Of a stretch of 52,297 nt of DNA, positions 256-52,297 are shown piece by piece. The notes beneath the pieces were generated by a model that had not been told where the DNA came from, made no database searches, and was given only the letters and a program-made list of their open reading frames with translations. Each line of letters opens with the position of its first letter. The first letter of the stretch is position 1. The DNA comes from Bacteroidales bacterium (GTDB taxonomy: Bacteria; Bacteroidota; Bacteroidia; Bacteroidales; Bacteroidaceae): assembly GCA_030532685.1 (NCBI GenBank), contig JAUNKN010000009.1:1-52297 (forward strand), given 5' to 3'. Both the position numbers and the translations under genes were made by a program.

Positions 256-360
256 TTTTATGAACCTCCGTGCGAGTTTCGTTTTCCGCGCTGCGAGCTA
301 AAAAATCCGCCTTCCCACTTTCGTAAGTTTAGATGCGAGTTAGAGTTTTCTCGCGCGCAC
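256..360 (-). repeat. 21-base phased intergenic array, site 1 (5 units)
   Basis: Read on the minus strand, five units start at 360, 339, 318, 297 and 276, exactly 21 bases apart. Their first bases are GTGCGCGCGAG, CTCGCATC, GTGGGAAGG, CTCGCAGCGCGG and CTCGCACGG, and the second half of each unit is A-rich or T-rich. Positions 282-310 are identical, in inverted orientation, to 19481-19509. The array lies between the tRNA-Lys promoter and the phytase-like operon end, outside any credible gene. Confidence 0.75.
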
Positions 361-631
361 ATACGCGCGTTTCCCCTTTAACTATCGTATATTTTACCTC
401 CATAGCCTCCATAGGATGACGTAAGTAGCTGGAAGTTAGGGGGAAATAAAGTGGAGGTGGGCGATAAGCTGACTTCCACTATGGAGATAAATAACTTCCA
501 GTCCTTTGCAATGATGTATAGAGAGAATGGAGGGGGTGTGGAAGCAAATCGTGCTTCTCTTCCACTGTTATCGTGATTGAAAATCAGATGTTTATATCCA
601 TTTGTGGAGCTTGTGGAAGGAAATGTAGACG
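361..631. repeat. TGGAAG/CTTCCA-rich non-coding tract, copy 1
   Basis: I see no credible gene in 361-769. The tract has a CGCGCG box (350-369) and then many TGGAAG, TGGAGG and CTTCCA words. They include an inverted pair, GTGGAAG at 538-544 and CTTCCAC at 559-565, able to form a 7-base-pair hairpin. The same word set next to a CGCGCG box recurs at 19190-19434 and 36100-36470. The remainder up to 769 is the 3' flank of the operon ending at 770. A weak inverted repeat GGGT/ACCC (734-769) could be its terminator. Confidence 0.6.
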
Positions 632-769
632 ATGTTTATGGGGGGAGCGTGCGCGTGCCTATGCGCGAAAGGAAGAGGGGAAAGTTTGTCCTACGTGTTG
701 GAGAGTCGTAAGGAAAATCAAATAAGTAAAAACGGGTGGCATAAAACCGATTGTTGTGTATGTATACCC

Positions 770-1834
770 TTAGAAGGGGAGCACAAGGACACGGATGTAA
801 TCGCGAATGCGAATGGGCCATCGTCCCATACTGGCTTGGGAGTCGTTGAGACAAAGGAGGGTGAGGCGTCCATCGCTCAAAGGCTGGCCAAGGCACATGG
901 CTTCATAGTTGGCCAAGGAGCGAGCTGTAAGATTGAGGCGTGTGGTCCAGCTGGCGATGAGTTGTTTGCGTAAAAAATGTTCAGGACGCAGGCTGCTAAG
1001 AGTTTGTTGGGGGGATATGGAGGATTGTTGACGAGGCTGCACACGATAAATCTTGACTTCGACCCAAGACTGGAAGCCAGGCAGACGAAAATTGCCTTCG
1101 CGCTCCATGACCAAAAGACTACCATCGGGGAGCGCACAGAGGGAGGGAACACCAGAGATATAGGCTCGTCCAAAGGTGGTGGCACGAGCTCTATCAGTGC
1201 GATAGGCATATTGTTCGGTGGGGCGTCCATGATGGTCGAAAGTTTGTAGGCGCAGAAGATTGGCAGCCTGAGGGTGTTGGACGCCTGGAGGAAAACCATC
1301 GTGGCGTAGTGTGGTCTCGCTGGTGGTATAAAAACGACGATATAGGCTGTCGTAGCAAAGGGCTTCAAAGCCGCAGTTGAGGTAGCAACTATCGACGGAA
1401 AATTGTGAAGGGACGGTCAGCTCGCGTCCAGTGAGGCTCCCGTCGAGACGATGCTCAACGATGCGCTGGTCGCCCTCGCCGCTGATCCACAGGCTGCGAG
1501 CGGAAGGAAGATAGGCTATGCCTTCAAGGTCGCGGCGTGTCCATCCGTGGCGATCGGTGAAGGTGGGGCGCACGCCAAAGAAGCCTTCTTGCTCCACGTG
1601 GATAATGCGTCCTGTGAGGGAGTCTTGCTCGATGTGCCAACGATAGAAACCATCGGCTTGAGACTTGTCGCTGACGAGGGCATAACGCTGCTCGCCAAGG
1701 GGAGTAATGCCGCTATAATGGGCGGTGGTGATGTGCCAAGGGGTGAGCTTTTGCTGCGGATGCAGCATCGCCTGCTGGGCACTCGCGTGGAGGGCGCAGC
1801 AGGCGATGAGAAAGGAGAAAAAAAGGCGAAGCAT
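770..1834 (-). CDS. Exported phytase-like esterase domain protein
   Basis: 354 residues. The N-terminus MLRLFFSFLIACCALHASAQQ is a clear signal peptide, so the protein should act in the periplasm or outside. The mature part resembles the esterase-like phytase family (PF13449): YSGITPLGEQRYALVSDK near residue 40, a DLEGIAYLP segment near 103, GFEALCYD near 155, and a late ANYEAMCLGQPLSDGRLTLL segment, all typical of this beta-propeller-like fold. The substrate cannot be read from sequence. It is the last gene of the minus-strand operon starting at 8497, 14 bases after the GNAT gene. The family call is fairly secure; enzymatic activity is inferred only. Confidence 0.75.
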   Translation of the reverse strand: MLRLFFSFLIACCALHASAQQAMLHPQQKLTPWHITTAHYSGITPLGEQRYALVSDKSQADGFYRWHIEQDSLTGRIIHVEQEGFFGVRPTFTDRHGWTRRDLEGIAYLPSARSLWISGEGDQRIVEHRLDGSLTGRELTVPSQFSVDSCYLNCGFEALCYDSLYRRFYTTSETTLRHDGFPPGVQHPQAANLLRLQTFDHHGRPTEQYAYRTDRARATTFGRAYISGVPSLCALPDGSLLVMEREGNFRLPGFQSWVEVKIYRVQPRQQSSISPQQTLSSLRPEHFLRKQLIASWTTRLNLTARSLANYEAMCLGQPLSDGRLTLLCLNDSQASMGRWPIRIRDYIRVLVLPF

Positions 1835-1848
1835 GAGAGGGGAAATGT

Positions 1849-2940
1849 TTATTCGTCCAAGAGCATGGCCATGAGCACGGGCTGTGCCCCGAGGAAGAGG
1901 GCGGCAAGTCCGCCAGGGGTAATGATGTTGTCGGGGCGTTGGTCGGTGATGGTGAGCTGCCCGTCCATGAGTTGATAGTAGCCGTTGTTTTCGGGGATGT
2001 CGAGGTCGCCGTCGATACCTACGTGCAGTTGCAGACCTGGGTAGATGCGCCCTACGAAGCGGAGGAAAGCTTCGACGTTGATGATGCGTGCCATGGCATA
2101 AGGACGGCTTTGTTCAAATCCTTTTCCTGGGCATCCGCCCTGCATGGCCATCTCCTTGACGTCGAGCAGTTGCATGGCTCGATATTGGAGGTAGCGCATG
2201 GTGTGCTCGTCGGTGGTGATCATGTAGCGAATGAGACCGCGAAAGTTTTTGGTCGATGCCTTGCCTGATTTCAAAGGTTTGCCCTCGCGAATGGCGAGGC
2301 AGAAACCTACGATTTTGCCTCGACGACGAGCCACCACTACTTTGCCTCCTGAGAGGTCGTGGGTTTCGATGGCGGCAAAGAAAGCCGCTTTGTCGAGCTT
2401 CAACTCGTAGTCGTGGCGACCGCCAAAGGTGTTGTAGTATTGCCAAAGGTCGCGCCCCCATTCTTCTTCGGCCAGAATGTCAAGGTGGAGGTCCGGCCGA
2501 AAATCATTTTTAGGGGTCACATCGACGGTGAGTCGATGAGTGGCGGTCCAATAGGCACCGTGATTTTGCTTTTCATACCACTTGCGGAGCTTATCGTTCC
2601 CTGGAATCAGGAAAGATATGAGTTGCCCCTCGGCATACATCTTTCGATGGGCATCGTGCAGCACTTTACTTCCCAATCCTTTTCCACGGTGGTCGGGATG
2701 GGTGCAGAGTCCACTAATATAGCCTGCTTTGATGGCTTTGCCAGCAAAATTGAAACGAAAGGGCAAAACCTGTGTTGCGGCAATCACTTGAGCATCGCGA
2801 CGTTGAGTCACATTGCGTTCAGTGGAGTAGCGGTCGGTAAAATAAATGTCGAGAAAATCTTCGCTATCGTTGGGGAAACACAGTTGCCAGAGCTGACGGG
2901 TCTGAGTTTGGAGTTGTTCGGGGCTAAGTATCATGATCAA
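1849..2940 (-). CDS. GNAT family N-acetyltransferase
   Basis: 363 residues, longer than a single GNAT domain (about 150), as in two-domain Eis-like proteins. The acetyl-CoA loop is visible as HPDHRGKGLGSKVL (residues 81-94), preceded by the beta strand AGYISGLCT. A second, weaker acyltransferase-like half follows (GGKVVVARRRGKIVGFCLA near 200). The product would transfer an acetyl group from acetyl-CoA to an unknown amine in the cytoplasm. ATG codons at 2940 and 2934 are both possible starts. It lies 15 bases downstream of the DUF2156 gene in the same operon; pairing of these two acyltransferase-fold genes suggests related substrates, which is inference. Confidence 0.8.
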   Translation of the reverse strand: MIMILSPEQLQTQTRQLWQLCFPNDSEDFLDIYFTDRYSTERNVTQRRDAQVIAATQVLPFRFNFAGKAIKAGYISGLCTHPDHRGKGLGSKVLHDAHRKMYAEGQLISFLIPGNDKLRKWYEKQNHGAYWTATHRLTVDVTPKNDFRPDLHLDILAEEEWGRDLWQYYNTFGGRHDYELKLDKAAFFAAIETHDLSGGKVVVARRRGKIVGFCLAIREGKPLKSGKASTKNFRGLIRYMITTDEHTMRYLQYRAMQLLDVKEMAMQGGCPGKGFEQSRPYAMARIINVEAFLRFVGRIYPGLQLHVGIDGDLDIPENNGYYQLMDGQLTITDQRPDNIITPGGLAALFLGAQPVLMAMLLDE

Positions 2941-2955
2941 GGTATGAAGAGAGGG

Positions 2956-3876
2956 TCAAGCAATGGTGATGCTATACTTTTGCAGAAGATATTTGGGCTG
3001 ATAGCTGAGTTTGGCACGGCGCAATCCTTCGAGACCGAGATCTTCCTCGCGGTTGATGAGGCTATATTGCTCGGGGAGATGCCGCACAAACTCGCGATTG
3101 ATAATGGCATAGGCGCCGTCATAATCGGTATCGGCTTTTTCGCAGCACACATCGAAAGTGTCGTAATTGATGGGGCCGCCAAAGGTGAAGGCCACAACTT
3201 TGCCCTCGACCAAGATTACTCCTCCTATGGCACCGAGTTCTTCCCAATGTTTGAAGACGCGGCGCATGGAGTGCTGTTCGTCGTCGGCATTGAGACGAGC
3301 TTGGCTTTCGGTGTGGCGGGCAGCCCATTGTTCTTCGAGTTGCCAGCACTCTTGTACCAAATCGGGTGTGAGTGCTCGATACTCATAGTTGGGATAGGTA
3401 CGCTCGAAGCGGTTGGCGTGGTTGCGTTTGGATTGTAATTTCTTGCCGGCAAGCGTAGAGAGGGCTTCTCGGTCGTAGATGTAGTCGGTATAGGAGGCAT
3501 CGGTTGTGGCTCGAAAGTGTCCTGGCAATACGTTTTCAAAACGAGTGAGCATTCCCTCGCAAGCCCCCATGATGCGAAAGGCTTCGCCTCGTTCCTGACT
3601 GTGCGCAACGAGATCGAGTAGGATTTGAGCATAGGTGCTACCCATGGTGGCGCAGTCGTAAGGAGGAAGGAGAAGAGGAGGAAGATAGGCCGTTTGACCG
3701 TCGCTGCGAAAGCGAATGATGAGTGCATCTCGGTGCAAAGCCATTTGGGCGTGGTAGATGAACTGCCACGACATGAGATTGATAAAGTTATAGTCGCAAT
3801 TCCTACACTCGGCTCCTAAGGTGTATCGTTGCACCAGGTCGCGGTCGGCGTAGGTAAGGTCTCGAAATTGTAGCAT
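2956..3876 (-). CDS. DUF2156 (phosphatidylglycerol lysyltransferase C-terminal-like) protein
   Basis: 306 residues with no membrane segments. The sequence matches the soluble DUF2156 fold, a double GNAT-like domain that in MprF transfers an aminoacyl group from aminoacyl-tRNA to lipid. Visible blocks are LTYADRDLVQRY at the start, GKKLQSKRNHANRFERTYP near 144, GGVILVEGKVVAFTFGG near 217, and the ending INREEDLGLEGLRRAKLSYQP near 274, which is characteristic. The membrane flippase half of MprF is absent, as usual for stand-alone Bacteroidota members. The acceptor is unknown. Its operon carries PASTA, ddl and acyltransferase genes, so an envelope role is plausible. Confidence 0.8.
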   Translation of the reverse strand: MLQFRDLTYADRDLVQRYTLGAECRNCDYNFINLMSWQFIYHAQMALHRDALIIRFRSDGQTAYLPPLLLPPYDCATMGSTYAQILLDLVAHSQERGEAFRIMGACEGMLTRFENVLPGHFRATTDASYTDYIYDREALSTLAGKKLQSKRNHANRFERTYPNYEYRALTPDLVQECWQLEEQWAARHTESQARLNADDEQHSMRRVFKHWEELGAIGGVILVEGKVVAFTFGGPINYDTFDVCCEKADTDYDGAYAIINREFVRHLPEQYSLINREEDLGLEGLRRAKLSYQPKYLLQKYSITIA

Positions 3877-3900
3877 GTTGAAACTAAGTCGTGGAGAGGG

Positions 3901-4539
3901 CTAATACAAGAAGTTGTATTGGTACAAGCCTTTGTCGGTAAGGACAAGAAAACGCAAGCTGTCGATATCGCTGCGCAAGGTGGAACGAAGCTGATGCGTG
4001 GGACAGGAGAGGTAAATCTCTTGGGTATAGTCGCTGCGATCTCCTCCATCGTTGTGAAAGAGCTGTAAGACTTGGGTGCGTCGGCCATCGGGATGCTCAA
4101 TAATACCTTTGTCGGCAAAACCAGCTCGATGTTCGCCCTTGTACGAGCGTCCTATGCCCAAACGAAGGTTGATGTATCGCTCGGTACGCCAAAGGGAGAG
4201 AAGCCGTACGGGAGCCGTTGTCTGAGCCTCTAAGCTTGCAGAAGGCGGAGGAGCTGGCACCGTTACGATATGATACACTTTGGTGGAAAGCCCCGACTGA
4301 TGCTCATGGTCGTAAGCAACGAGCACACGATATAGTGAACTGGGGTGAAGCGTAAGCGGATAATCTTTCGTTTCGATGAAAAGCGAATTGTCGAGTTTGA
4401 CAATCAGCGGCTTGCCTTGAGAATCGGTGCGCAATTCTCCCAATTCGTAGCGCAAGGCCGGAGCGGCGATTTCGTCGTCGGTACTGCAAGCGGCAAGACC
4501 GAAAGCAAAGAGTAGGGCGGTGGCAAGCTGTTTAAGCAT
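3901..4539 (-). CDS. NigD-like lipoprotein
   Basis: 212 residues from the ATG at 4539. A longer reading frame upstream is unlikely because this ATG is directly followed by a lipoprotein signal, MLKQLATALLFAFGLAACST, with the lipobox Cys at residue 18. The mature part (DNSLFIETKDYPLTL, then YRVLVAYDHE) resembles the two-domain NigD-like family, lipoproteins found in Bacteroidota whose function is not established. The start overlaps the end of the acyltransferase gene by 8 bases, so the two are translationally coupled. The name rests on pattern similarity and is moderately sure; that it is a lipoprotein is clear. Confidence 0.7.
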   Translation of the reverse strand: MLKQLATALLFAFGLAACSTDDEIAAPALRYELGELRTDSQGKPLIVKLDNSLFIETKDYPLTLHPSSLYRVLVAYDHEHQSGLSTKVYHIVTVPAPPPSASLEAQTTAPVRLLSLWRTERYINLRLGIGRSYKGEHRAGFADKGIIEHPDGRRTQVLQLFHNDGGDRSDYTQEIYLSCPTHQLRSTLRSDIDSLRFLVLTDKGLYQYNFLY

Positions 4540-5698
4540 GGGCGGCAAGATGGTTGTAAAGCGGATTGGCATACATCGTGAGCATACACTGGCGCAAGTA
4601 GGCTTCGTCCTTATTCTCAATTTTGATGAGTGCTAAGCGGCTCTGCAGGTATTGATCGAAAGTGGCTTTCTCCTTGTGAGTATAGTGCTGCGCAAAGCGC
4701 GTATTGTTTTCCAAAAGATCGGCCGCAACATAGTTGGAGGGGTAGAGACGATAGCCGCGATGAATGTGCTGGTCTATACGTGCCGCGACAGCCTCGAACA
4801 TCTCTTTTGGAGAAAGTGCTCGATATTCTTCGATCCACTCGTTGATGCAGGGCGAGAGCTGATAATGAACGCGTCCTTTCTTCCCTAAAATACCTACGCG
4901 CATATTGTCAAGGTCGTCTTGCTTCGACTTCTTGAAGGAGGGATTGTCGCGTTTTTGTTGAAACTCCTGAGCCTTGAGATAGTCGCAGGGGTCGTATTCG
5001 TAGGAAATGGTGAGAGGCACGAGCTGCATGGCTCGCAAGGCATCAAGAGGATTCCCTTCGTAGCCGAGCGTCATCATGCGGAGCACTGAGGGTTGCGTGC
5101 GATCGTTGCTATCTTTGGCGCGTCCTTCACGTTGCGCTATCCAAATATTATCTTTTCCACTTTCTATGACCCAATGCATGTAGCGGCTCATGAGCGTAGA
5201 AGAGTTCAGCAATTCTTTGGGGGAGAGCGAGCGGCGCACGATGAATGCTTTGTTCATGCGTACAAAGCGCCGTATCCAAGGATAAATGAGCAGATTGTCT
5301 CCAATGGCGATTTGGACGGTGTTGGGGAATTTCGCATCAATGAGAATCACAGAGAGCATGGCCGAGTCCAGCACGATGTCGCGGTGATTGGAGATATAGG
5401 TGTAGCCCGCCTGCTTTTGAGGAAGCGCTTCGTAGGAGAAAGTGAGTTTTTTAGTGGTGCGCCTAATCAAAAGGTGCATCGCGGGAAGCATGTAGCGCTT
5501 CTGAAATCCCAAAGCACTCTTCACTCCCCAAGAGGTGGCACGTAGGAATCCACGTATCCAGCCTTTGGGGAGCCAAGGGACGAAACCCCGTAAAACTTGC
5601 ATGAAGAGCCGATCGTGAAGAAGTTGCTCAAAGTTTTCGCGGATTTCCTCGTCGGCGACGGGGCGTATTTCGTCAAATTCGCTGGGAATGTGCTTCAT
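4532..5698 (-). CDS. 1-acyl-sn-glycerol-3-phosphate acyltransferase-like protein (PlsC family)
   Basis: 388 residues. PlsC motif I is ISNHRDIVLD (103-111), the catalytic His-Asp pair. Motif II-like FIVRRS is at 152-157, and motif III-like QREGRAKDSND is at 189-199. The family moves fatty acyl groups onto glycerolipid or other envelope acceptors at the inner membrane. The protein is longer than housekeeping PlsC (about 240) with an additional C-terminal region, so its acceptor may be another lipid. It follows ddl by 6 bases, and the next gene overlaps its stop codon. Confidence 0.8.
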   Translation of the reverse strand: MKHIPSEFDEIRPVADEEIRENFEQLLHDRLFMQVLRGFVPWLPKGWIRGFLRATSWGVKSALGFQKRYMLPAMHLLIRRTTKKLTFSYEALPQKQAGYTYISNHRDIVLDSAMLSVILIDAKFPNTVQIAIGDNLLIYPWIRRFVRMNKAFIVRRSLSPKELLNSSTLMSRYMHWVIESGKDNIWIAQREGRAKDSNDRTQPSVLRMMTLGYEGNPLDALRAMQLVPLTISYEYDPCDYLKAQEFQQKRDNPSFKKSKQDDLDNMRVGILGKKGRVHYQLSPCINEWIEEYRALSPKEMFEAVAARIDQHIHRGYRLYPSNYVAADLLENNTRFAQHYTHKEKATFDQYLQSRLALIKIENKDEAYLRQCMLTMYANPLYNHLAAHA

Positions 5699-5704
5699 GT
5701 GAGA

Positions 5705-6697: not shown

Positions 6698-6752
6698 TGT
6701 TAAAACCATTTCTATATCGGAGTGAGTACAAGGTTTTGCGAGGAGCAAAACC

Positions 6753-8497: not shown

Positions 8498-8535
8498 AGA
8501 GTACAGATGTGTATGCGTCTGTGCATAGTATAGCG

Positions 8536-8566
8536 CAAATTTAGCACAAACTACCAGAAGGACAAA
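8536..8566 (-). promoter_or_regulatory. Promoter of the PASTA-rluD-ddl operon
   Basis: On the minus strand TTTG (8563-8566) is separated by 19 bases from TAAATTTG (8536-8543), a full match to the Bacteroidota -33/-7 consensus. No other equally good promoter was seen before 770, so all eight genes may depend on it. Confidence 0.85.
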
Positions 8567-8619
8567 GCGTATGCTCTAAAAAAGCACAGCAGCTTGTGTC
8601 TGTATTCCTAAAAAAGAAA

Positions 8620-8654
8620 GAGGCTGCTCCAAAACGATGTTTTGGCACAGCCTC
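8620..8654 (-). terminator. rpmH terminator
   Basis: An inverted repeat GAGGCTG/CAGCCTC with an inner TCCAAAA/TTTTGG pairing lies 27 bases after the rpmH stop. On the minus strand it is followed by a T-rich run. The stem sequence GGCTGTGCCAAAA recurs in the hairpins at 31000 and 32660. Confidence 0.8.
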
Positions 8655-8681
8655 TTTTGTAGGGGGGGTAAGCGCTTTGGC

Positions 8682-8840
8682 TTACTTCTTACCGTGTACT
8701 TCGTCAGATACGGTGAGCTTCTTGCGGCCCTTGGCGCGACGAGAAGCCAGTACGCGGCGGCCATTAGCAGTGGCCATACGCTGGCGGAAACCATGCTTGT
8801 TGTTTCGCTTGCGATTGTGGGGTTGGAACGTTCTTTTCAT
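8682..8840 (-). CDS. rpmH: 50S ribosomal protein L34
   Basis: 52 residues, start [20 protein letters not shown], end EVHGKK; the whole chain is the expected very basic L34 sequence ([20 protein letters not shown] in the middle). It is a component of the large ribosomal subunit. It stands alone between its own promoter (8911-8941) and terminator (8620-8654), so it is a single-gene transcript here. It is not next to rnpA or dnaA, unlike the arrangement in many other phyla. Confidence 0.97.
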
Positions 8841-8941: not shown

Positions 8942-8978
8942 GAAAGTCAGTCAAATAGTGCACCTCTGAGCTGTATTT

Positions 8979-10240: not shown

Positions 10241-10324
10241 CTACATGGGAAGCCTAAAATCCTACGTGGGACGCAGGATTTTCTACGTGGGAAGAAGAAA
10301 ATCCTATGTGGGAAGAAAAAACGA
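10241..10324 (+). repeat. 21-base phased intergenic array, site 2 (4 units)
   Basis: Four units begin at 10241, 10262, 10283 and 10304, exactly 21 bases apart. Cores are CTACATGGGA, CTACGTGGGA, CTACGTGGGA and CTATGTGGGA, each followed by an A/T-rich half unit (AAAATC or ATTTT). The frame is open through the array (repeated YVGR), but the promoter at 10355 lies downstream of it, so it is probably not translated. The rest of the 357-base interval between trpS and the lipoprotein holds only the two promoters. Confidence 0.8.
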
Positions 10325-11027: not shown

Positions 11028-13247
11028 ATGATGAAAAACACATTTCTCAGTGCTCTGGCGGGAGTACTTTTGTTTGGCAGTGCGGAACCCCTTACTGCAC
11101 AATTGCATGAAACCTCTATTCGTAAATATCCCATGTATACTACAACAGAATATGGTGTGGTTTTGAGTTACTACGGAAAAACAAAGGAGGAAACGATAGA
11201 TCTTTCTGGACGACCACTGCGCAATGTTGATAACGGAGCTTTTTATGATTGCTTGGCTGTCAAAAAACTTCGTGTGGGGCGTGACTTTTATCGCTTTGAC
11301 ACTAACTCTCTTATTTTTCGAAACCCTACTCTTGAAAAAATAGAAGTGGAGGAGGGGAATAAAAGTTATATCGCTCCAGAAGGAGTGCTCTATAATATTG
11401 ATGAGTCGGGAAAGGCGTTTAAGCTTCGTCGCTTCCCACCTGCCAAAGCTGGAGCTTATGAAATACTTGAAGGAGTAACGTCTATAGATTACAATGCTTT
11501 CCATAATTGTGAGAATATAACGTCGTTGCGTTTACCTCACTCTATGAAAAATATTCGAGGAAATAGGGCCCTATCCGATTGTCATAAGCTAGAGCGTATA
11601 GATATGGTGAAGGACAACGATTACTTGAAGAGTGTAGATGGAGTCTTGTATGAGTATCGTTATGAAAATCAACAAGCGGCACAAGGTCTTAGAGAAGTTT
11701 GGTTATCTGTTTTTCCTGCAGGTAAGCGTGGTACTTACGTATTGCCTGCTAATGTGACGCAATTGCGCAATCAATATATGGCTAAACGCGGCCCTAGTTT
11801 TGGAAATATAGACAACATCCAAGTAGCCGAAGGTAGCGCTCATTTCAAGAGCATAGAAGGGGTACTATTCAACCATGATGGTACAATCTTAATGGCATTT
11901 CCTGGAGCTCGAGGAGGAGAATATCGTGTTCCCGAAGGAGTTACGACGATAGCTCAGGGGGCGTTTACTCATTGTCGTAATTTGACAACATTGCACCTTC
12001 CGAAAAGCTTCCAAAAATTTGATTTTTTGCATAAGGACTACGCGGGTGTAAAAGTGCGTCCTATTTTTGAAGGCTGCACGCAATTGGCCAATATTAGTGT
12101 AGATGAAGCTAATCCAAACTTTAAGAGTGAGGGAGGAGTTCTCTATTCGAAAAAAGGCGAAACCTTAGTCTTGTGTCCTCCTGCTAAAACAGGAGTGTTT
12201 GTTGTTCCAGATGGAGTGACGAACATCGCAGAAGCTGCCTTTTATGCCTGTACTCAATTGACGGATATTCGTTTGCCTTGGAGTCTGACTACGATAGGTT
12301 TATCCTCGTTTGTGAAATGTGATGGTATTACAAATTTCTCAACTCCGTATTTGGTAGAGAAGGTGGAGGGTTTCCATCAAAATGCTCGTCCATTAAGTTT
12401 GACTGCAATTTATAATTTTGCACACAAGAGAAACTTTCGAAATAGTGAGTTTCGAGGTGATTTTAACCCTCTTTGTACATGGTGGGAAGTTCCTTACTAT
12501 TATGTAAATAGAGGTGGAGATTTGGCTTTCGATGGTTATCGCTCTCTATCTCGCACTGCCATACAGCCTCCCACTACAAAACTGGTAGATGGCGAGAACT
12601 ACGATAAAAAGATGCGTGAATACTATCCTACGTTGTCCTATACGCGCAATTTTACGAACACCCATTGGCAACCACTCTATTTGCCTTGTGATGTGGCTAT
12701 GGAAGACCTCGTGCAGTATTGTGAAGTGGCAGAGCTTGTCGAAGGAGATGCAAAAGGATTCAATGCTCGAAAGTTGAATGCCCAGGAGATGGTGAAGCGC
12801 TATCAGCCTTATGTGATTAGAGCTAAGCAAGCAGGAAATTACACTTTCAACCTCCGCAACGTGATGCTCGATGTGGCCGAAGAAAAGAGTAAAGACATTG
12901 CGGTAGGCAACGCAACTTACCGCTTTGTGAGCAATTGGACTCGAAAAGCAGGGTTGAAGAAAGACGGGCTTTACGTGATGAAGAATGGCCGTTTGCGTCC
13001 TTTGGCCAGCAGCCAAGGAGAATTGCCCGCTTTACGCTGGTATTTGCAGGCACCAGAAGGAGCAAATGTAGAGCAACTCGCTTTGCGCATAGATGGAGCA
13101 TTGCCTACCGCTTTGGGTGGAGCACCTTCTATTGAGTCTTCTTCCTCCTTGGGTGTTTTCTCGGTCGATGGTCGCCGCCAGCAACGTCCTTTGCAGGAGT
13201 TACCCGCAGGTATCTATATTGTAAATGGTCAGAAAGTAGTCAAATAA
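11028..13247 (+). CDS. BspA-like leucine-rich repeat surface protein
   Basis: 739 residues, start MMKNTFLSALAGVLLFGSAE with a signal peptide. The body has BspA-type LRR units (LRR_5), e.g. AFHNCENITSLRLPHSMKNI near 160, AFTHCRNLTTLHLPKSFQKF near 310 and AFYACTQLTDIRLPWSLTTI near 405. These alternate with segments of the form SVDGVLYEYR or SEGGVLYSKKGETLVLCPP. The end, GVFSVDGRRQQ then LPAGIYIVNGQKVVK, is the short terminal motif seen on many exported Prevotellaceae proteins and resembles the last strands of a type IX sorting domain. A surface or adhesive role is likely. The region 490-690 between the repeats and the tail is unassigned. Codon use is more AT-rich than in the flanking genes. Confidence 0.85.
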   Translation: MMKNTFLSALAGVLLFGSAEPLTAQLHETSIRKYPMYTTTEYGVVLSYYGKTKEETIDLSGRPLRNVDNGAFYDCLAVKKLRVGRDFYRFDTNSLIFRNPTLEKIEVEEGNKSYIAPEGVLYNIDESGKAFKLRRFPPAKAGAYEILEGVTSIDYNAFHNCENITSLRLPHSMKNIRGNRALSDCHKLERIDMVKDNDYLKSVDGVLYEYRYENQQAAQGLREVWLSVFPAGKRGTYVLPANVTQLRNQYMAKRGPSFGNIDNIQVAEGSAHFKSIEGVLFNHDGTILMAFPGARGGEYRVPEGVTTIAQGAFTHCRNLTTLHLPKSFQKFDFLHKDYAGVKVRPIFEGCTQLANISVDEANPNFKSEGGVLYSKKGETLVLCPPAKTGVFVVPDGVTNIAEAAFYACTQLTDIRLPWSLTTIGLSSFVKCDGITNFSTPYLVEKVEGFHQNARPLSLTAIYNFAHKRNFRNSEFRGDFNPLCTWWEVPYYYVNRGGDLAFDGYRSLSRTAIQPPTTKLVDGENYDKKMREYYPTLSYTRNFTNTHWQPLYLPCDVAMEDLVQYCEVAELVEGDAKGFNARKLNAQEMVKRYQPYVIRAKQAGNYTFNLRNVMLDVAEEKSKDIAVGNATYRFVSNWTRKAGLKKDGLYVMKNGRLRPLASSQGELPALRWYLQAPEGANVEQLALRIDGALPTALGGAPSIESSSSLGVFSVDGRRQQRPLQELPAGIYIVNGQKVVK

Positions 13248-19099: not shown

Positions 19100-19434
19100 A
19101 ATCGGGTGGAACGAGGAAGAGTGGAGGAGAGAATGGCACCAATAGCCTTATCTTCAGGTGTGTGCCTCTCTCCTTTATAGATGTGAACAATATCTTCCAC
19201 TGCTTCCATTGTTTGATATAAGTGCTTGTTTGTCAGAGAGAAAAGCTGTGGAAGTGAACTTTTTACTTTGCTTCCATTTTTGACGATAATGAGGTCTCGA
19301 GGTCTTGTATAAAGGTGGAGGAGAGAAATGGCATTCCTTCCACGACTCATTTTGCTGATATTCTGTTGTTTAACCAGTGAAGTGGAAGGAGTGGAGGAAA
19401 AAAACAGAATTTTACTGAGTGAAACGCGCGCGAG
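19100..19434. repeat. TGGAAG/CTTCCA-rich non-coding tract, copy 2
   Basis: Non-coding DNA between the carboxyltransferase promoter and the fucosidase gene. It holds CTTCCACTGCTTCCA (19194-19208), identical to 36203-36217, and a hairpin pair TGGAAG (19249-19254) / CTTCCA (19271-19276). Near the right end it has TGGAAGGAGTGGAGG and then the box ACGCGCGCGAG (19424-19434). Same word set and general order as 361-631 (inverted) and 36100-36470. The minus-strand open frame here has no protein-like features. Confidence 0.65.
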
Positions 19435-19451
19435 GAAATAGATGTGGGAAG

Positions 19452-19535
19452 CTCGCAGGGAGATTGATGGGAATAGGAGCGCGGATTTTTTAGCTCGCAG
19501 CGCGGAAAAAGAAAATGGGAAGTAGAAATACGTGG
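19452..19535 (+). repeat. 21-base phased intergenic array, site 3 (4 units)
   Basis: Units start at 19452, 19473, 19494 and 19515, exactly 21 bases apart. They open with CTCGCAGGG, ATAGGAGCGCGG, CTCGCAGCGCGG and ATGGGAAGTAG, with A- or T-rich second halves. The two middle units match two units of site 1 nearly base for base: 19481-19509 is an exact inverted copy of 282-310. From 19536 to the fucosidase promoter I see nothing else. Confidence 0.75.
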
Positions 19536-27733: not shown

Positions 27734-27865
27734 CTCGCAAGGATGTTTATTATTTCCGCGGATTTATTTAATTATTTCCGCGGGATTATTTGAGTTTTCT
27801 CGCGGACTTAATTTCATAATTGCGCGGAAATAATAAATCGTGCTGCGAGAAAAAAATAATGGAGC
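27734..27865. repeat. 22-base phased array, site 4 (6 units), containing a 92-base inverted-repeat element
   Basis: Cores fall at 27734 (CTCGCA), 27756 (CCGCGG), 27778 (CCGCGG), 27800 (TCGCGG), 27822 (GCGCGG) and 27844 (TGCGAG), exactly 22 bases apart in AT-rich DNA. Inside it, 27746-27837 is a 92-base element with perfect 15-base inverted ends (TTTATTATTTCCGCG). The first 37 bases of the element are shared with 44844 and 52225 apart from the CCGCG-flanking base. The centre has diverged. The interval 27620-27946 between the WYL gene and bamD holds nothing else but the bamD promoter. Confidence 0.8.
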
Positions 27866-35741: not shown

Positions 35742-35872
35742 GGGAGCGTTTGCTCCAAAATCTAATTGAATTATCGCTATCCTACGCTTCCCGAACCACC
35801 GCTTCAGGCCAAAAAGAAGTCGGCTATTCATACGCAGGGGCGACCACTCATAGTGGCCGCTTGATAATAATC
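35742..35872 (-). promoter_or_regulatory. rplM leader with hairpins
   Basis: The 160-base untranslated leader contains three hairpins on the minus strand. One is GCGGCCACT/AGTGGTCGC (35840-35860, one mismatch). A CCTGAA/TTCGGG hairpin lies in the middle. GGAGC/GCTCC with a 4-base loop (35743-35756) is close to the start codon. L13 represses its own operon in E. coli, so a similar control is possible here. Confidence 0.5.
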
Positions 35873-36034: not shown

Positions 36035-36097
36035 CTACGTCCCATGTAGAAAATTTTTGCTCGCAGCGCCGATTTTCTACCTCCCTTGGAAATAAAT
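36035..36097. repeat. 21-base phased intergenic array, site 5 (3 units)
   Basis: CTACGTCCC at 36035 and CTACCTCCC at 36077 are 42 bases apart, with a CTCGCAGCGCC-type unit between them (36056-36076), so the period is 21. The minus strand of the first unit reads CTACATGGGA, the core of site 2 (10241-10324). The middle unit carries the CTCGCAGCG core of sites 1 and 3. Confidence 0.65.
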
Positions 36098-40364: not shown

Positions 40365-40450
40365 TAATCGCTCTCTGTATCCTGTTTGTCTACGTGCGCC
40401 GTAGAAACTTTATGACGCACGCAGCAAAAACGGCATATAAAGAGCGATTA
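40365..40450. other. Inverted-repeat-bounded non-coding segment
   Basis: The 500 bases between PBP1A and the glycosyltransferase hold no credible gene. Within them TAATCGCTCT (40365-40374) and AGAGCGATTA (40441-40450) are perfect inverted repeats bounding 86 bases. Inside, CGTGCG/CGCACG and CTACG/CGTAG can also pair. It could be a terminator for the downstream side, a small structured RNA or a relic of a short mobile element. I cannot choose between these. Confidence 0.4.
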
Positions 40451-44689: not shown

Positions 44690-44831
44690 AGAGTAGTAAA
44701 AAAGGAGCACAAAATAATACCTCTACTCGAAGCATACAAAAACGAGGGAGCTTACTTTTGGGGAAAACTTCTTGTCAAAATAAGTCTTTTTCCGCTCTCG
44801 AAACGTGGAGCTGAGACTCGTATATTTTTCT

Positions 44832-44941
44832 TTGGGTAGGAGGTTTATTATTTCCGCGGATTTATTTAATTATTTCCGCGAGATTATGAAATTATTTCCG
44901 CGGGAATAATTAAATAAATCCGCGGAAATAATAAAAGGCTG
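44832..44941. repeat. 22-base phased array, site 6, with the most perfect 92-base element
   Basis: Element 44844-44935 is 92 bases, with perfect 31-base inverted ends beginning TTTATTATTTCCGCGGATTT. CCGCG cores fall at 44854, 44876, 44898 and 44920, exactly 22 bases apart. A GGG-containing unit (44832) precedes. The trinucleotide AGG flanks the element on both sides. The 334-base interval 44690-45023 between the AddA-like start and the barrel gene's stop contains no gene. Confidence 0.85.
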
Positions 44942-45023
44942 TCGGAGTGCCGCATACCTTCTTGCGAGAGTGAAGCTGTAAAGAGGCCTACAAAATCACA
45001 GAAATGCTTGCGCAGAGCCAACA

Positions 45024-47039: not shown

Positions 47040-47070
47040 ACGAATGCACGAATTCTGGTGCAACACAAAA

Positions 47071-48225
47071 CTATCGGCGACCTAACAATTCTTGTATGCC
47101 GTCCATGTCGAACGATAGCGAGACGCGCAAAGTTTGGTCGAGAGGGTTGCTGGGATTGGTTGCTACCACATAGCCCGCGTCAATGCTCAGTACGTTCATC
47201 TTAAAGCCCGCTCCGAAAGTATAGTACTTGCGATTGCCCTGCATTTCGCTCTCGTGGTGATAACCAGCACGCAGGGCAAATTTGTCGTTGTAGGTATACT
47301 CTGCGCCAAGGCTCCATTGCACTTCCTCCAATTCGCCTTCTAAACCACGTTCGCTATCTGAAAAGCTCTTGAATATTCCAGCAATGGGGGACACGTCGTA
47401 GTAGCCTCGGCGAATGCGGTCTTGATATTCTTCCGTAGCTTCGCCTTCTGCTTGTAGCGGCAAAGAGGGCACGAGAAATTTGCTCACGTCGGCCGTGATG
47501 GCAAAACGATTGTACTCGTTGACGGGTAGTGTAAGATTTAGTCCCGTACGCAAGGTGGTTGGGATAAAATAGGAGTAGTCTGAGCCGAAATTGATTTTCG
47601 TACCAATGTTTTGTACATTCAAGCCCCACGCCAAGTTGCATTCGCGAGAACCCAGTAGGATGTAATTGTTCCAGTACATCGAGATGTCAGCAGCAAAGGC
47701 TGAACCAGGTGTGACTTGGTCATTGTAGCGCCCCGACAAGTCGGAGTACATGTAGCGCATGGCAATCGACGCCGAGAAATTCGGAGAAAGCATGCGAGAG
47801 TAGGCCGCGTCGACAGCAAATTCGTAAGGCTTTACGGTGTAGCTGCCATCGGTGGCAATGACATCGCCCACAGTGAAGTATTTAATTGAACCCGAAACGG
47901 CTTGCAAATCGCCCAAGCGGGTGTAGCCAACAGCATTGACCAGCGCAATGCCTTCGGTGAGCTGGCGCAACCAAGGCGTATAATTGAGCGTAAAGCCTGC
48001 ACGCGACACCGTGAAAGGATATTTAGAGGGATTCCAGTTTTGTGAGTACACATCTGGGTCTGTGGCTGCACCAAGGTCGCCCATTGCTGCGCCGCGAGCA
48101 TCAGCCGCGATGGTTTGCGACACGACCGCTGTGCGCACGGGGTTGAATTTCTTTTGAGTTTCACTCTGTGCTGTGGCCGACAACGAGAGGGCCATGAATG
48201 CAGAGGCTATGACAATACGATTCAT
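47071..48225 (-). CDS. porV: Type IX secretion system outer membrane protein PorV
   Basis: 384 residues with a signal peptide (MNRIVIASAFMALSLSATAQ). FadL-like barrel of the PorV/LptO family: FNPVRTAVVSQTIAADARG, GDLGAATDPDVYSQNWNPSK, then GYTRLGDLQAVSGSIKYFT, and a terminal strand QTLRVSLSFDMDGIQE. PorV binds cargo C-terminal domains and carries them from the Sov/SprA translocon to the PorU attachment complex. It is translationally coupled to porU (4-base overlap, ATGA). Confidence 0.95.
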   Translation of the reverse strand: MNRIVIASAFMALSLSATAQSETQKKFNPVRTAVVSQTIAADARGAAMGDLGAATDPDVYSQNWNPSKYPFTVSRAGFTLNYTPWLRQLTEGIALVNAVGYTRLGDLQAVSGSIKYFTVGDVIATDGSYTVKPYEFAVDAAYSRMLSPNFSASIAMRYMYSDLSGRYNDQVTPGSAFAADISMYWNNYILLGSRECNLAWGLNVQNIGTKINFGSDYSYFIPTTLRTGLNLTLPVNEYNRFAITADVSKFLVPSLPLQAEGEATEEYQDRIRRGYYDVSPIAGIFKSFSDSERGLEGELEEVQWSLGAEYTYNDKFALRAGYHHESEMQGNRKYYTFGAGFKMNVLSIDAGYVVATNPSNPLDQTLRVSLSFDMDGIQELLGRR

Positions 48226-51200
48226 AAGCGAGAGATAATGAGTTTTTGAGTTTGAGATTTGCTCGTGCCTTGAGGATAGCTAATCGTTGCACGATACAAA
48301 TAAATCCCGTCAGAGAGAGGAGCACCAGTGTTGTTGTGTAGATTCCAATGGAATGTCGCACTCGATTGCCCAGCTGCGCTCTTGGAAATGTGCGACCACA
48401 CGCGGTGGCTGGCTACATCAAACACTTCGATGAGTAGCTCCCCTTCCTCTTGAGCTTGTGCCTCCCAACGAACAACGAAAGTTGTGTGATTTTGAGCGGG
48501 ATTGTTGCTGGCTAAAATGGAAGTTGCTTTTTGTTCTTCGTCACTTACGACAAAGCGTAGGTGGGTGGTTGTGGAGTTGTTGTTGATGTCCCATACACGA
48601 AGAGACAACTGATGCGGACCAGCGGAAAGCCCCTTTAGAGGATAAGTAAGCGTGCCTTTCTGATACGAGCCAAAGTCGTAGGTAAAGTAGTCATTGAGTG
48701 CAACCATCTCAGAGGCCCGGCCATCGAGGGTGAGTTCGATGTCGTGGCCCACGCTATTGCTTAGGCTGTGGATACCGCTGTCGTCGCTGATGTGTGCGAT
48801 GAGTGTAGGATGCTTGTCTACAATGGCCAGTTCAGGCGTGTCAGGGCTATTTAGATAAGCGACCACTTTGGGAGGAGATACATCAAGTTCGGCATTGGTG
48901 TCGGTACCATTTAGGTAGAAGGCTGTGCTCACACCACTGCACTCCCTTTGTTTGTCGTCGCTCACAGCGTAAAGGGATAGCCGCGCCGATTCGTCGGAGT
49001 AACTGATGTCTCGGGGAATGACAACCTTAAATTCAAATCGTCCTTCCTTGACTACATGGCTACCGCCAAATACCTGCCGCGTGCGCTCTTTGTACTTGAA
49101 AGGTTGTTTGTCGTCTTGCCGCGCACTGCCATCGTTGTCCTTACAAGTGATGGTTTCGATGCGATCGAAAAGCATTGCTTCGAGCTTTCCGTTGAAGCTC
49201 GTGTCGACTTGCTTTTCGTCGTTGGTTTGAGCGACATAGCCCGAGAAGGTGACCACGCTTCCTGCTGCGAGTTGTATATTGTTTTTCAAGGGCTTACCGT
49301 CTATTTGTTCGAGTATCAAAGTACCCGTTGGGAGCGCCAGTGTAAGGGCCGGGTCGCCAAAGAGTACGTATTTGAGTTTGTTGATGCTCGTATCCAGGTA
49401 ACCCGATAACATTTCGTTTTTGGCCAAGCGCAGTGCTTCACCCATGCTCACATGTTTTCCTTGGGCATTGCGTCCTACGACATGTTTGGAAAAAGCTGCG
49501 TTGAGTGCAGCATTTTGTGCTGCATATACGGCGCGTGTAGCACACATGAAGGCGATACTCCCTCCATCGGGAAGATAAAGAGAGCTTTCGCCCAAATTGT
49601 CTTCGTAGGCATCGAAAGGATATATCTCACAAGAAGCCACCACCCACAAGGCCAAATGAGGAGAAAAGGCTTTGCGAAAATCGTCGAAGCCCAGCACTTT
49701 TTCGTGCGATATTTGGTGGGGAGCACCATGGCCACAGTAGTTGAACATGGCTGCTCCGCTGCTCATTTGTTGATGGATTTGTGTCGTGGCAAGCGGGTAG
49801 GTAAATCCCGCTGCTCCCGTTTGTCGCTTGAAACTGTCCCAATAAATTTTTCGTACGTTCAAGCTGGGGTTGGCGGCTTCTATGACATCGGCCACCTCGT
49901 CGGCGTCTTCCATATGTTCATTGGCATCGCCGTCGTCGCCGAGCATCACTACTTTTGTTTTCCAAGCACCAGTGGTCTTGTTGTTAAGGTATTGTTCCAC
50001 CTTATCCACCAGTCGGCGAGCTTCCTCGGCAGTGGTAGCAACCATGCGCCCTACGGCCAAATCGAGTTTTTCAAAACGCAAATTAGCTCCTTCCCCATCG
50101 TCGAGCATTGCGAAAAAATCGTCGCTCACATAGCTTTGTACGGTGCCTATGCTGTAGGGAGAATGGTCGGCCTCGTAGGGTAGCAGGTAGTCGGCAGGGT
50201 TCTTCCCCGCCCAATGAGCTGTGATGAAACGAGCATCCCAAGGACTTTTGCCCATGAGTAGCAAGTATTTCGGAGCTTCTTTTTCTGTAGCAGCTCGATC
50301 GTAGAGCATTTTCAAATATCGGCGATAGGCATTGGCGTCGGGAGTTCCAGAAGAGAATTCGTTGTAGAGCCAATCGGCGCGTACCACTTTGACCACCATT
50401 CCCTCACGCTCACGATGCAACTGGGCTAATCGCTCAGCTTGCTCCATCAGTTTGCCACTTTCGGGCACAACGATTACGTAGTCGATTTTTTCATCGGCAT
50501 GTAAATTTTGAGGGGCTATCGTTCCGACATATTCGGGAGCGGGATAGGAGAGTGCTGCGTCAAAAGCCACAAAGCGTTCTTCTGGAGTTTGGGTCGTAAA
50601 TGTAGCTTTCCCTCCTTCCAAAAGTGTGAGTGGCACTCGCTGGGTTGGTTGCACGCCTCGCGCCAATTGCCACAACTGCGTCGTAGAGGTGACTCCCTCG
50701 AGACGCAACGTTTGTTTTCCTATGCCTTGAGGCGAAAAAGTATAAGGCGCTGTTGATAAGCGTAGTATGCGTGGGTAATTGATGCGAATGTAGTCGAGTC
50801 GAGCTTCATTGCCAGGCGTGGTCGTGAAGTCATATTTGAGAGTTTCGCTCCGAGCTGTGCTGGTGAAGCTACTGCTTGTGGCTCTCGCTATCTCGAGGAG
50901 AGAGTTGTAGGTGCCCAGCGTGCTTTGAGCCATCAATTCCCCTCCTTGTTCCACCAATACTTTGGTGGGGATAGTGGCAGAGGAAGCTGCAAAGGCTATT
51001 TCGGTATTGACTTTTGTTCCCGTTTCGGTGAGTGCGATATCGGGAAGTGCGATGGAATAGCTGTGTTCGTTGCCCTGTGCAAAATTGTAAGCGTCAAACA
51101 AACGACGTCCTCCCTCGTACCAACTTTCTTTATCTTCGTCCAATACGGCAATGTGGGGAACGGTAGTTCGCACGGTGGTATTGGGCGAAAGTTCGCTTTG

Positions 51201-52016
51201 GAGTTCAATCTTGGCATTTGCTTCTCCCTCGGTCACGAAATAGTAAGAGTAGGCCGAATAATGGTTGTTCGTGTGCGTCCAACGGTTTGTGGCGCGTTCA
51301 AATTGGTACGAACGTGTCCCCTCTGCCCAAAACAAGCGACCTTCGCGCCCTGCGATGGTGCGTACTTCAACCAAATCGTCGGGAACGAAGCTCTGAGCAG
51401 AGAAATCGAAGGTTTCGGGCTGCAAACGTCCGCCATAGCCATACACCTTGATGCGCTCCATGTGAGAAAATCCCATTTGTTTCAAGAACGCTGGTGTGAT
51501 GCAATAAATGCCTTCTTGGCTAACTCTGATTTTTGCCCATTTTCCTTGGCTCAAGACCGATTGCTTGGTCCATCTTTCCCGCTTGTCCTTTCCTCCTTGT
51601 GCTGGAGCCAAAGAGCGAGTGTTTCGAGGGCTTACTTTTAGTTTGCACGAAGACAAGCGCATCCACTTGCCTTCGTGGCGGACAATCGGAGAAATGCTCA
51701 CATTGAGGTAGCGCTCTTTACGGCTCACGTTGAGACGATGTTCCAAGTGCCAGCCTCCATCCGTTCGTCCTTTACGGAGCATTTGTTGCAACACTTTGCG
51801 TTCGCTTGCCGTGAGCGGGCTATACTCGGGGTAGAGGAGCTGGACGTCAAAATGGTCGCCTATGTCCTTTCCCAAGCGAATCTCGTGGGTGAAGATGGGC
51901 AAGCTATCGACCACTCGATAGTCCTGCACATCAATATGCAGGAACTCCCTCTCCTGAGCGTGAAGCCCGAGAGAAAGACTTGAGAGGAAAAAGGCTAATA
52001 TCGTCGATTTGAGCAT
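48222..52016 (-). CDS. porU: Type IX secretion system sortase PorU
   Basis: 1264 residues from the ATG at 52016 (MLKSTILAFFLSSLSLGLHA, a signal peptide); 16 more codons are open upstream but would spoil the signal. A C25 (gingipain-type) peptidase domain lies in the middle, with catalytic His763 in NYCGHG and Cys796 in VASCEIYPFD. The 33-residue spacing equals that reported for P. gingivalis PorU (His657, Cys690). The end is a type IX sorting-like domain (NPAQNHTTFVVRW ... DGIYLYRATISY ... KLIISRL). It cleaves cargo sorting domains and joins cargo to surface lipopolysaccharide. First gene of the porU-porV-barrel operon. Confidence 0.95.
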   Translation of the reverse strand: MLKSTILAFFLSSLSLGLHAQEREFLHIDVQDYRVVDSLPIFTHEIRLGKDIGDHFDVQLLYPEYSPLTASERKVLQQMLRKGRTDGGWHLEHRLNVSRKERYLNVSISPIVRHEGKWMRLSSCKLKVSPRNTRSLAPAQGGKDKRERWTKQSVLSQGKWAKIRVSQEGIYCITPAFLKQMGFSHMERIKVYGYGGRLQPETFDFSAQSFVPDDLVEVRTIAGREGRLFWAEGTRSYQFERATNRWTHTNNHYSAYSYYFVTEGEANAKIELQSELSPNTTVRTTVPHIAVLDEDKESWYEGGRRLFDAYNFAQGNEHSYSIALPDIALTETGTKVNTEIAFAASSATIPTKVLVEQGGELMAQSTLGTYNSLLEIARATSSSFTSTARSETLKYDFTTTPGNEARLDYIRINYPRILRLSTAPYTFSPQGIGKQTLRLEGVTSTTQLWQLARGVQPTQRVPLTLLEGGKATFTTQTPEERFVAFDAALSYPAPEYVGTIAPQNLHADEKIDYVIVVPESGKLMEQAERLAQLHREREGMVVKVVRADWLYNEFSSGTPDANAYRRYLKMLYDRAATEKEAPKYLLLMGKSPWDARFITAHWAGKNPADYLLPYEADHSPYSIGTVQSYVSDDFFAMLDDGEGANLRFEKLDLAVGRMVATTAEEARRLVDKVEQYLNNKTTGAWKTKVVMLGDDGDANEHMEDADEVADVIEAANPSLNVRKIYWDSFKRQTGAAGFTYPLATTQIHQQMSSGAAMFNYCGHGAPHQISHEKVLGFDDFRKAFSPHLALWVVASCEIYPFDAYEDNLGESSLYLPDGGSIAFMCATRAVYAAQNAALNAAFSKHVVGRNAQGKHVSMGEALRLAKNEMLSGYLDTSINKLKYVLFGDPALTLALPTGTLILEQIDGKPLKNNIQLAAGSVVTFSGYVAQTNDEKQVDTSFNGKLEAMLFDRIETITCKDNDGSARQDDKQPFKYKERTRQVFGGSHVVKEGRFEFKVVIPRDISYSDESARLSLYAVSDDKQRECSGVSTAFYLNGTDTNAELDVSPPKVVAYLNSPDTPELAIVDKHPTLIAHISDDSGIHSLSNSVGHDIELTLDGRASEMVALNDYFTYDFGSYQKGTLTYPLKGLSAGPHQLSLRVWDINNNSTTTHLRFVVSDEEQKATSILASNNPAQNHTTFVVRWEAQAQEEGELLIEVFDVASHRVWSHISKSAAGQSSATFHWNLHNNTGAPLSDGIYLYRATISYPQGTSKSQTQKLIISRL

Positions 52017-52133
52017 ATCGTGTCGTTGCTTAACTTCGCAGGAAAAGTGTTTTTTCGTGCGCATATAGTTTCAGAACGTAGCGCTACTTGTTTTATTGTT
52101 TTCCCAAAGGGGCTTCTACGTTCTATGCAGGCA

Positions 52134-52141
52134 CAAAAATA
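52134..52141 (-). promoter_or_regulatory. porU operon -7 box
   Basis: TATTTTTG on the minus strand fits TAnnTTTG, about 118 bases before the porU ATG. No good TTTG at the normal distance; the repeat array starts 72 bases upstream. Confidence 0.5.
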
Positions 52142-52212
52142 AGGAAAATAGCCGAATTTGACGAGGTTGCATTCGTTTCATTTTTCTTCAGCAGCCTTCT
52201 TCAAAAAACAAA

Positions 52213-52297
52213 TAGGGAAGCAACTTTATTATTTCCGCGGATTTATTTAATTATTTCCGCGAGATTATGAAATTAAGTCCGCGGAAATAATTAAATA
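52213..52297. repeat. 22-base phased array, site 7, cut by window edge
   Basis: The first 73 bases of the 92-base element (from 52225) are present. CCGCG cores are at 52235, 52257 and 52279, 22 bases apart, preceded in phase by a TAGGGAAG unit (52213). It is the same as site 6 over the first 51 bases and then differs at a few positions. It lies upstream of the porU promoter. Confidence 0.8.

Follow-up and report, generated by a model that had tools for sequence, protein, structure and literature searches.

Two-turn-phased intergenic arrays in a Bacteroidales chromosome and candidate explanations of their geometry

The contig JAUNKN010000009.1 of a Bacteroidales bacterium (Bacteroidaceae; assembly GCA_030532685.1), 52,297 bp long and analysed here in full as "the window", carries seven intergenic arrays in which GC-rich core words follow one another at a nearly constant period of two helical turns. 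What kind of element keeps such a period, and does it act as DNA, as RNA or for its own spread? The window is contig C30 of a genome (hereafter the source genome) of 1.87 Mb in 54 contigs, 85.5% complete. A sequence-only reading had treated the seven arrays as one class with three interchangeable core types, possibly bound cooperatively by a protein. Our results confirm that the arrays are real and beyond chance, and show that their 21-bp geometry recurs in the genus while the words differ between species. In most tests, and in three lineages, the arrays are also more evenly spaced than a random choice of gene gaps.

A 21-bp lattice of cores and A-tract spacers

The unit consists of a 15-bp imperfect dyad core and a 6-bp spacer, usually an A-tract (AnTm), repeated at 21 bp (2 x 10.5). 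Family A combines a 15-bp core of the CTACGTGGGA type with the 6-bp spacer, and family C has cores of the CTAGCTCGCAGCGCG type, which often flank an A core on either side. Family B is a near-palindrome of about 90 bp with CCGCGG-type cores about 22 bp apart, found at 14 places in the source genome. The window contains the following elements:

Site 1, 256..360: mixed C/A array on the 21-bp lattice, with cores TGCGAG, CCGCGCTGCGAG and TCCCAC
Site 2, 10241..10324: family A array with a 21-bp period and four units of the CTACGTGGGA type
Site 3, 19434..19535: mixed A/C array on the 21-bp lattice
Site 4, 27734..27865: family B near-palindrome of about 90 bp, edged by CTCGCA/TGCGAG cores and containing CCGCGG-type cores about 22 bp apart
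Site 5, 36035..36097: short mixed array at 21 bp, with cores TCCCA and CTCGCAGCGC
Remnant, 40390..40425: two degenerate units (CTACGTGCGCCGTAG and TATGACGCACGCAGC) 21 bp apart, absent from the sequence-only reading
Site 6, 44832..44941: family B element
Site 7, 52213..52297: family B element, truncated by the contig end

All seven sites lie within gaps between predicted genes and the periods first proposed for them were recovered, the best self-match lag being 21 at sites 1, 2, 3 and 5 and 22 at sites 4, 6 and 7. The fractions of 300 shuffles per site that reached the observed lag were, for sites 1 to 7 in order, 0.013, 0, 0.013, 0, 0.20, 0 and 0; therefore, the periodicity of site 5 is not significant alone, while the other six sites beat their shuffles.

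A sample of the source genome (400 kb, as twenty 20-kb stretches at fixed contig positions) contained 33 in-register chains of TGGGA/CTCGCA-type cores at period 21, comprising 95 cores; each of the other periods between 15 and 27 had 0-3 chains. Of the 33 chains, 14 had more than one core type. In this sample, GTGGGA-GTGGGA pairs up to 70 bp apart peaked at 21 bp (18 of 50) and 42 bp (12), opposite-strand GTGGGA pairs at 22, 43 and 64 and at 20 bp, and pairs of GTGGGA with CTCGCA at 21 and 63 bp. As the same-strand, opposite-strand and A-with-C distances all fit, they describe one 21-bp lattice. A scan blind to the cores, over 67 kb of noncoding DNA of the source genome, found 24 clusters with a lag of 21, while every other lag between 14 and 30 had 0-2. 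Neither outcome named by the sequence-only reading as refuting it, spacing no commoner than chance or a lack of recurrence in the genome, was observed. In contrast, CCGCGG pairs showed no distance peak in the 400-kb sample, which held a single pair. Therefore, the interchangeability of cores within an array, proposed for all three types, is shown only for the TGGGA, CTCGCA and GTGCG types, and the CCGCGG arrays form a different family.

The arrays recur elsewhere in the source genome, where near-identical family A segments were found at several loci (40 of 150 candidates of the family A search were scored) in addition to the places of family B. Among the 75 distinct arrays in all source-genome DNA examined, mostly at loci chosen by similarity and so not a random sample, 24 join A with C and 17 join A with D cores; more than 100 arrays per genome is plausible. 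Several contigs start (C10, C14, C23, C24, C38, C49 and C51) or end (C12, C41 and the window itself, at 52297) inside arrays, as if these repeats had broken the assembly.

Most spacers are A-tracts of the AnTm form, which bends DNA, unlike the TnAm form. Among spacers with at least five A/T, TpA was found in none of 67 inner spacers of 34 arrays from two sister species (G007 and G019, see below), against 61.5 expected by letter permutation, and in 5 of 60 outer flanks of the sister-species arrays (43.1 expected). The source genome gave 3 of 64 (46.2 expected) and another relative, G065, 0 of 13. Control intergenic hexamers contained TpA in 1183 of 2286 cases in the source genome (1388 expected) and in 289 of 610 in G007 (383 expected). 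With a simple additive A-tract model (an assumed 18 degrees per tract, over 73-bp stretches), the median predicted bend at arrays was 69 degrees in G007, against 30 in array-free gaps (P = 3e-6), 68 against 30 in G019 (P = 3e-9), 43 against 34 in G065 (P = 0.046), 44 against 28 in contig C42 of the source genome (P = 0.002) and 49 against 33 in the window (P = 0.046).

Recurrence, symmetry and conservation in relatives

A similarity search (E <= 0.001) found no family A array in any of 36 same-genus genomes, and the A and C words showed no 21-bp peak in samples of G004 or of mixed relatives. Core-blind scans, however, revealed 21-bp lattices made of other words, with 30 clusters in 34 kb of noncoding DNA of G007, 11 in 52 kb of G015 and 4 each in G014 and G016, besides three 22-bp clusters in G018; by eye, a part of the lag-21 clusters in the counts for G015, G016 and G018 were not arrays of the same type. 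The complete, single-contig genome G004, of the same genus, yielded no convincing array in 400 kb of core-blind scan; its lag-18 and lag-27 signals look coding-like or like simple repeats and were rejected. The pattern TTTTCT-N11-AGAAAA, which outlines two A-tracts around one core, was counted in 58 same-genus genomes against a reversed control and was in excess in the source genome (17 vs 1), G007 (20 vs 1), G019 (31 vs 0) and G065 (13 vs 0), with little or no excess in most others and fewer than the control in some, such as G061 (2 vs 9). Among the matches listed, its 11 inner bases were species-specific, and common to G007 and G019.

When named genomes were scanned with a pattern, longer GTGGGA arrays of 21-bp units appeared in Tannerella forsythia OH1426 (stretches L117 and L126), Porphyromonadaceae COT-184 (L124 and L128) and H1 (L130 and L134) and other Bacteroidetes, as well as in one Methylocystaceae contig and some viral contigs; the stretches concerned further include Umea1 (L120 and L132), L123, L115 and L140. 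Since the search pattern itself fixes the spacing, information comes only from the extension of an array beyond the pattern. By eye, several of the 25 and 11 pattern-matched stretches were unrelated coding DNA. Of two similarity searches made in this connection, one was without a match and the other had a single weak and partial one. Of ten proteins neighbouring GTGGGA arrays in other taxa, none was an IS21-type transposase and one, beside the Methylocystaceae array, was a serine recombinase; a phage-contig array adjoins a terminase gene.

CCGCGG pairs 23 bp apart in G014 and G016 were rejected as lattices, being mostly hairpins resembling repetitive extragenic palindromes (REPs), of the form CCGCGGGT...ACCCGCGG near GACCCCTATGGGGTC palindromes and clustered at L203 14941-15300, L211 14144-14450 and L213 45-12500. 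Among the thinly sampled order-level relatives, G054 has arrays at L255 8223 and 9647 that combine a CTCACAATCTTGTCA-type core with an AT-rich spacer at period 23 and may represent this architecture with a different period.

Contigs C2 of G007 and C26 of G019, the two sister species, show synteny over 170 kb (80.6-92.1% identity), and most of the arrays in them have three units: an outer unit, a centre and an inverted outer unit. In 34 arrays, selected for CTAAACGCC-like outer units and with centres set by register, the arms paired in 0.847 of cells against 0.787 after re-pairing arms between arrays (sd 0.0096; no more than 0.821 in any of 2000 re-pairings), position 23 pairing in 0.94 against 0.45. 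The two middle spacer positions paired no better than re-paired arms and were unpaired in about half. Although the cells are not independent events, because the 34 arrays are related to each other, the left and right outer units covary. Whole arrays are palindromic (median 24 pairs of 30; array-free gaps 14), a result favoured by the choice of the best centre. This bias was not removed in the source genome either, where the covariation (0.711 vs 0.550 and 0.684 vs 0.618) is therefore only suggestive. Selection for unit-by-unit hairpins was tried and rejected, as half-sites inside single cores did not covary in the source genome (z = 1.1) or G015 (z = -0.2) and did so weakly in G007 (z = 3.0). 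The symmetry lies at the level of the whole array.

Of 25 ortholog pairs of arrays between G007 and G019, 22 of which had passed the symmetry filter, the comparison was limited to 19, because compensatory differences were spuriously counted where the centres chosen for the two members differed (dropped, by G007 start: 45194, 50518, 78192, 82055, 123995 and 153297). These 19 pairs contained 22 compensatory and 67 one-sided differences. Array identity between orthologs was 0.87, a value somewhat inflated by choosing the better orientation and the best centre, against 0.54 in adjacent intergenic DNA and 0.30 in unrelated flanks. Therefore, the arrays persist in these sister species while their flanks diverge. 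The inverted array was the better ortholog match in 7 of the 25 pairs, and three G019 arrays correspond to a G007 gap without one.

Spacing along the chromosome

The even distances between the seven sites had not been remarked by the sequence-only reading. The null model drew positions at random from gene gaps of 100 bp or more (80 bp or more in two window tests), and arrays were called by a lag/chain detector and by a word detector, the latter missing site 3 in the window and counting the remnant. The seven sites are 7.4-10.0 kb apart, with a coefficient of variation (CV) of 0.094 against 0.70 (P = 0.00006, and 0.00004 in a second test), and the six arrays of the lag/chain detector gave P = 0.049-0.065. 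In G007, 28 arrays had a CV of 0.55 against 0.79 (P = 0.019; 0.039 length-weighted), with no spacing below 3 kb against 7.0 expected (0 of 5000 draws); the 31 arrays of the word detector gave 0.45 against 0.78 (P = 0.0004) and one such spacing against 8.5. In G019, CVs of 0.34 and 0.38 with the two detectors compare with 0.79 and 0.77, none of 5000 draws being as low. G065 has 8 arrays in 100 kb at distances of 9.2-17.3 kb (CV 0.22 vs 0.78; P = 0.0006, or 0.005 length-weighted), and contig C42 of the source genome (140 kb) gave P = 0.009-0.022 with one of the two detectors and P = 0.18-0.29 with the other. As G007 and G019 share ancestry, they count as one lineage. The characteristic distance differs: about 5 kb in G007 and G019, 9 kb in the window and 11 kb in G065.

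Some features of the window lie near arrays. An L13-Bacteroidia ribosomal protein leader (35786-35860, minus strand; 40.6 bits, the gathering score being 38), which points to the class Bacteroidia, lies about 175 bp from site 5, and a gene for a BspA-type leucine-rich-repeat protein (11028-13247, plus strand) is downstream of site 2. A repeated motif TGGAAG...TGGAGG, or its complement, stands about 30-40 bp from a CGCGCGCG run beside several C-type arrays (window about 340-410 and 19395-19440; stretches L065, L078, L098 and L100, near their match) and looks like a separate dispersed element.

Candidate explanations

The strict two-turn phase, the conservation in the spacers of A-tracts rather than of letters, the dyad form and the even kilobase spacing speak for an architectural role as double-stranded DNA. 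The phasing proposed by the sequence-only reading is in this respect borne out by the strict lattice, the TpA-poor spacers and the recurrence of the lattice in relatives that use other words, and cooperative protein binding fits these observations. Our leading explanation, held tentatively, is that the arrays are evenly spaced platforms of curved DNA and protein that organise the chromosome. The covariation of the arms in cores but not at the middle spacer positions, the higher identity of arrays than of their flanks, the indifference to gene direction and the larger predicted bend also count in its favour. Phased A-tracts would make a curved, dyad-symmetric element of about 70-90 bp; dimers of an architectural protein may bind it on one face, and/or the element may pin a supercoiled plectoneme at its tip; a series of such elements at even distances would then divide the chromosome into supercoil domains. 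The words would turn over through copying between arrays, jointly with changes in the bound protein. We infer both the bound protein and the link to plectonemes. One study describes a plectoneme tip of about 73 bp and the pinning of plectonemes in vitro by 75-bp curved inserts, to which the array length of about 70-90 bp is close, and places plectonemes upstream of promoters (PMC6301789). Such pinning DNA is not a repeat family and the arrays, unlike promoter-upstream plectonemes, ignore gene direction.

A more specific version, possible but doubtful, is a chromosome-wide ruler, patchy in the genus, in which two-turn-phased, A-tract-spaced and dyad-symmetric arrays partition the chromosome at even distances that are characteristic of each species (about 5, 9 or 11 kb). 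It would be read by a fast-evolving architectural protein, the words being rewritten while the geometry stays fixed, in a bacterial counterpart to the coevolution of satellites and proteins at centromeres.

Several observations weigh against an architectural role. Some minor word families of G007 have TATATA spacers, and the family B spacers and the A/T runs at sites 1 and 3 likewise contain TpA. The bend model is crude and the excess modest outside G007 and G019 (43-49 vs 28-34 degrees), and the strong predicted folding reported below also fits hairpins. Adding the remnant, at 40408, raises the CV of the window from 0.094 to 0.276 (P = 0.006-0.009), the word detector gives a CV of 0.51 there (P = 0.22-0.28), and the evenness of C42 is weak with one detector (P = 0.18-0.29). 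No array-binding protein was identified. Finally, the source genome and G007 (mean protein identity 59.6%) share 13 conserved adjacent gene pairs, and at both testable gaps (46 and 13 bp in G007) the source-genome array has no counterpart; together with the apparently array-free G004, this suggests that arrays are dispensable.

The main rival, a serious possibility that nevertheless falls well short of probable, is a self-limiting mobile repeat, non-autonomous, which spreads by copying and avoids existing copies through target immunity or the recombinational loss of close pairs. Its inverted halves, templating each other, would keep it palindromic, and the even spacing would reflect packing, not function; the present data are compatible with both. 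The near-identical segments at several loci, the species-specific words, the gain or loss of arrays between sister species, their inversions, the compact dispersed palindrome of family B and the fact that the missing spacings are the short ones all agree with it. The proposed spread by copying is thus partly supported, by the near-identical copies, the three gaps occupied in one species only and the two source-genome sites empty in the distant relative. In contrast, no fixed ends were seen in the A/C arrays, no precise insertion boundary appeared in the three gaps compared, the middle spacer positions were not symmetrised with the rest, and array identity is near that of genes while flanks diverge. 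The source genome, at its 85.5% completeness, also has no Y1 transposase and no IS21 transposase above the cut-off (IstA, NF033546: best 24.6 bits vs 160), nor a match to the IS3 profile NF033516. IS21-type transposon ends carry multiple repeats of about 20 bp; the arrays were not seen at the ends of an element, and an origin from such ends is unsupported for the source genome.

The nearest repeats that we found within Bacteroidales are BrickBuilt and PINSR. The BrickBuilt miniature inverted-repeat transposable element of Porphyromonas gingivalis, described as spacerless 23-nt repeats with a leader, a tail and terminal inverted repeats in 19 copies (PMC4596501), is likewise an intergenic tandem repeat with a period near two turns. 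The arrays differ in their 21- or 22-bp period and A-tract spacers, and no common leader or tail was found among 30 family A loci, nor was any other part of the BrickBuilt anatomy seen. PINSR of Prevotella intermedia is a 188-bp repeat of unknown function without terminal inverted repeats, present in 177-184 copies with about three quarters of loci common to strains (PMC4755523); compared by description only, it resembles the arrays as a lineage-specific intergenic repeat.

The arrays could instead be hairpins, single-stranded or cruciform, for a nuclease, recombinase or HUH-type enzyme, like integron attC sites or REPs, with selection on arm pairing, which we regard as unlikely. The whole-array palindromes, the arm covariation with its compensatory differences and the strong predicted folding would follow from it. 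In contrast, one-sided differences are three times as frequent as compensatory ones, the middle spacer positions are unpaired in about half of the arrays, and pairing requires neither a strict 21-bp period nor TpA-free spacers. The REP-associated tyrosine transposase (RAYT, a Y1 transposase; PF01797) was found in neither the source genome nor G015; the array-bearing G007, G014, G016 and G019 have it, as does G004, in which the scan found no arrays.

Like REPs and the bacterial interspersed mosaic elements (BIMEs) that they form, the arrays are extragenic and species-specific, with palindromic units in mosaics, and regular unit spacing and complementary changes are described for REP/BIMEs (PMC2817692). 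However, the arrays add a strict 21-bp two-turn lattice with A-tract spacers and an even kilobase spacing, and neighbouring family A units have mostly the same orientation (61 same and 26 opposite at 21 bp), whereas BIME units alternate. REPs avoid divergent gaps and lie mainly between tandem or convergent genes, according to PMC3733652, whereas the arrays do not avoid them. REPs have a GTAG or CGTC tag at one end; the A cores of the source genome read CTAC...GTAG, and the words of G007, G019 and G015 mostly do not. Given the lack of Y1 transposase in the source genome and G015 and of any preference for gene direction, we do not claim membership of REP/BIME, although the mosaic logic is BIME-like.

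A transcribed structure, either a bidirectional terminator or an mRNA-stabilising hairpin, is very unlikely, even though the palindromes have an A-run before and a T-run after them and strong RNA folding is predicted, with z medians between -4.6 and -6.0. The arrays in divergent gaps number 6 of 32 in the source genome, 6 of 29 in G007, 6 of 32 in G019 and 2 of 12 in G015, about their background share of gaps, so that gene direction is irrelevant to array placement and the arrays, unlike intrinsic terminators, are not absent from these gaps. In addition, sense-strand mismatches in 37 tandem-context arrays show no G-U bias (G-T 25 vs A-C 28). Both results argue against an RNA function, and the structured RNA raised by the sequence-only reading is therefore disfavoured.

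Haemophilus and Neisseria uptake sequences have species-specific words and even spacing, as the arrays do, but a DNA uptake signal with species dialects is a most improbable explanation, since uptake needs no array lattice and the core words are not enriched in genes of the source genome (9 vs 7.8 expected) or G065 (2 vs 1.4), with a small excess in G007 and G019 (10 each vs 2.3 and 2.2).

In the literature searched (titles and abstract openings, with few subscription journals), this class of arrays was not found described. In the current view, a bacterial chromosome is partitioned into supercoil domains, and, from a non-exhaustive search, we know of no evenly spaced sequence marks for these domains. 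An element family in which the geometry recurs (two turns, A-tract phase, dyad and kilobase spacing) while the letters are replaced would make the question testable within a single genus and would reveal selection or copying that acts on the shape of DNA instead of its sequence. Even as a self-limiting repeat only, the arrays would be an instance in which the distance at which repeats of a bacterial genome exclude one another can be measured; if the architectural explanation is true, they hint at an undescribed mode of bacterial chromosome organisation.

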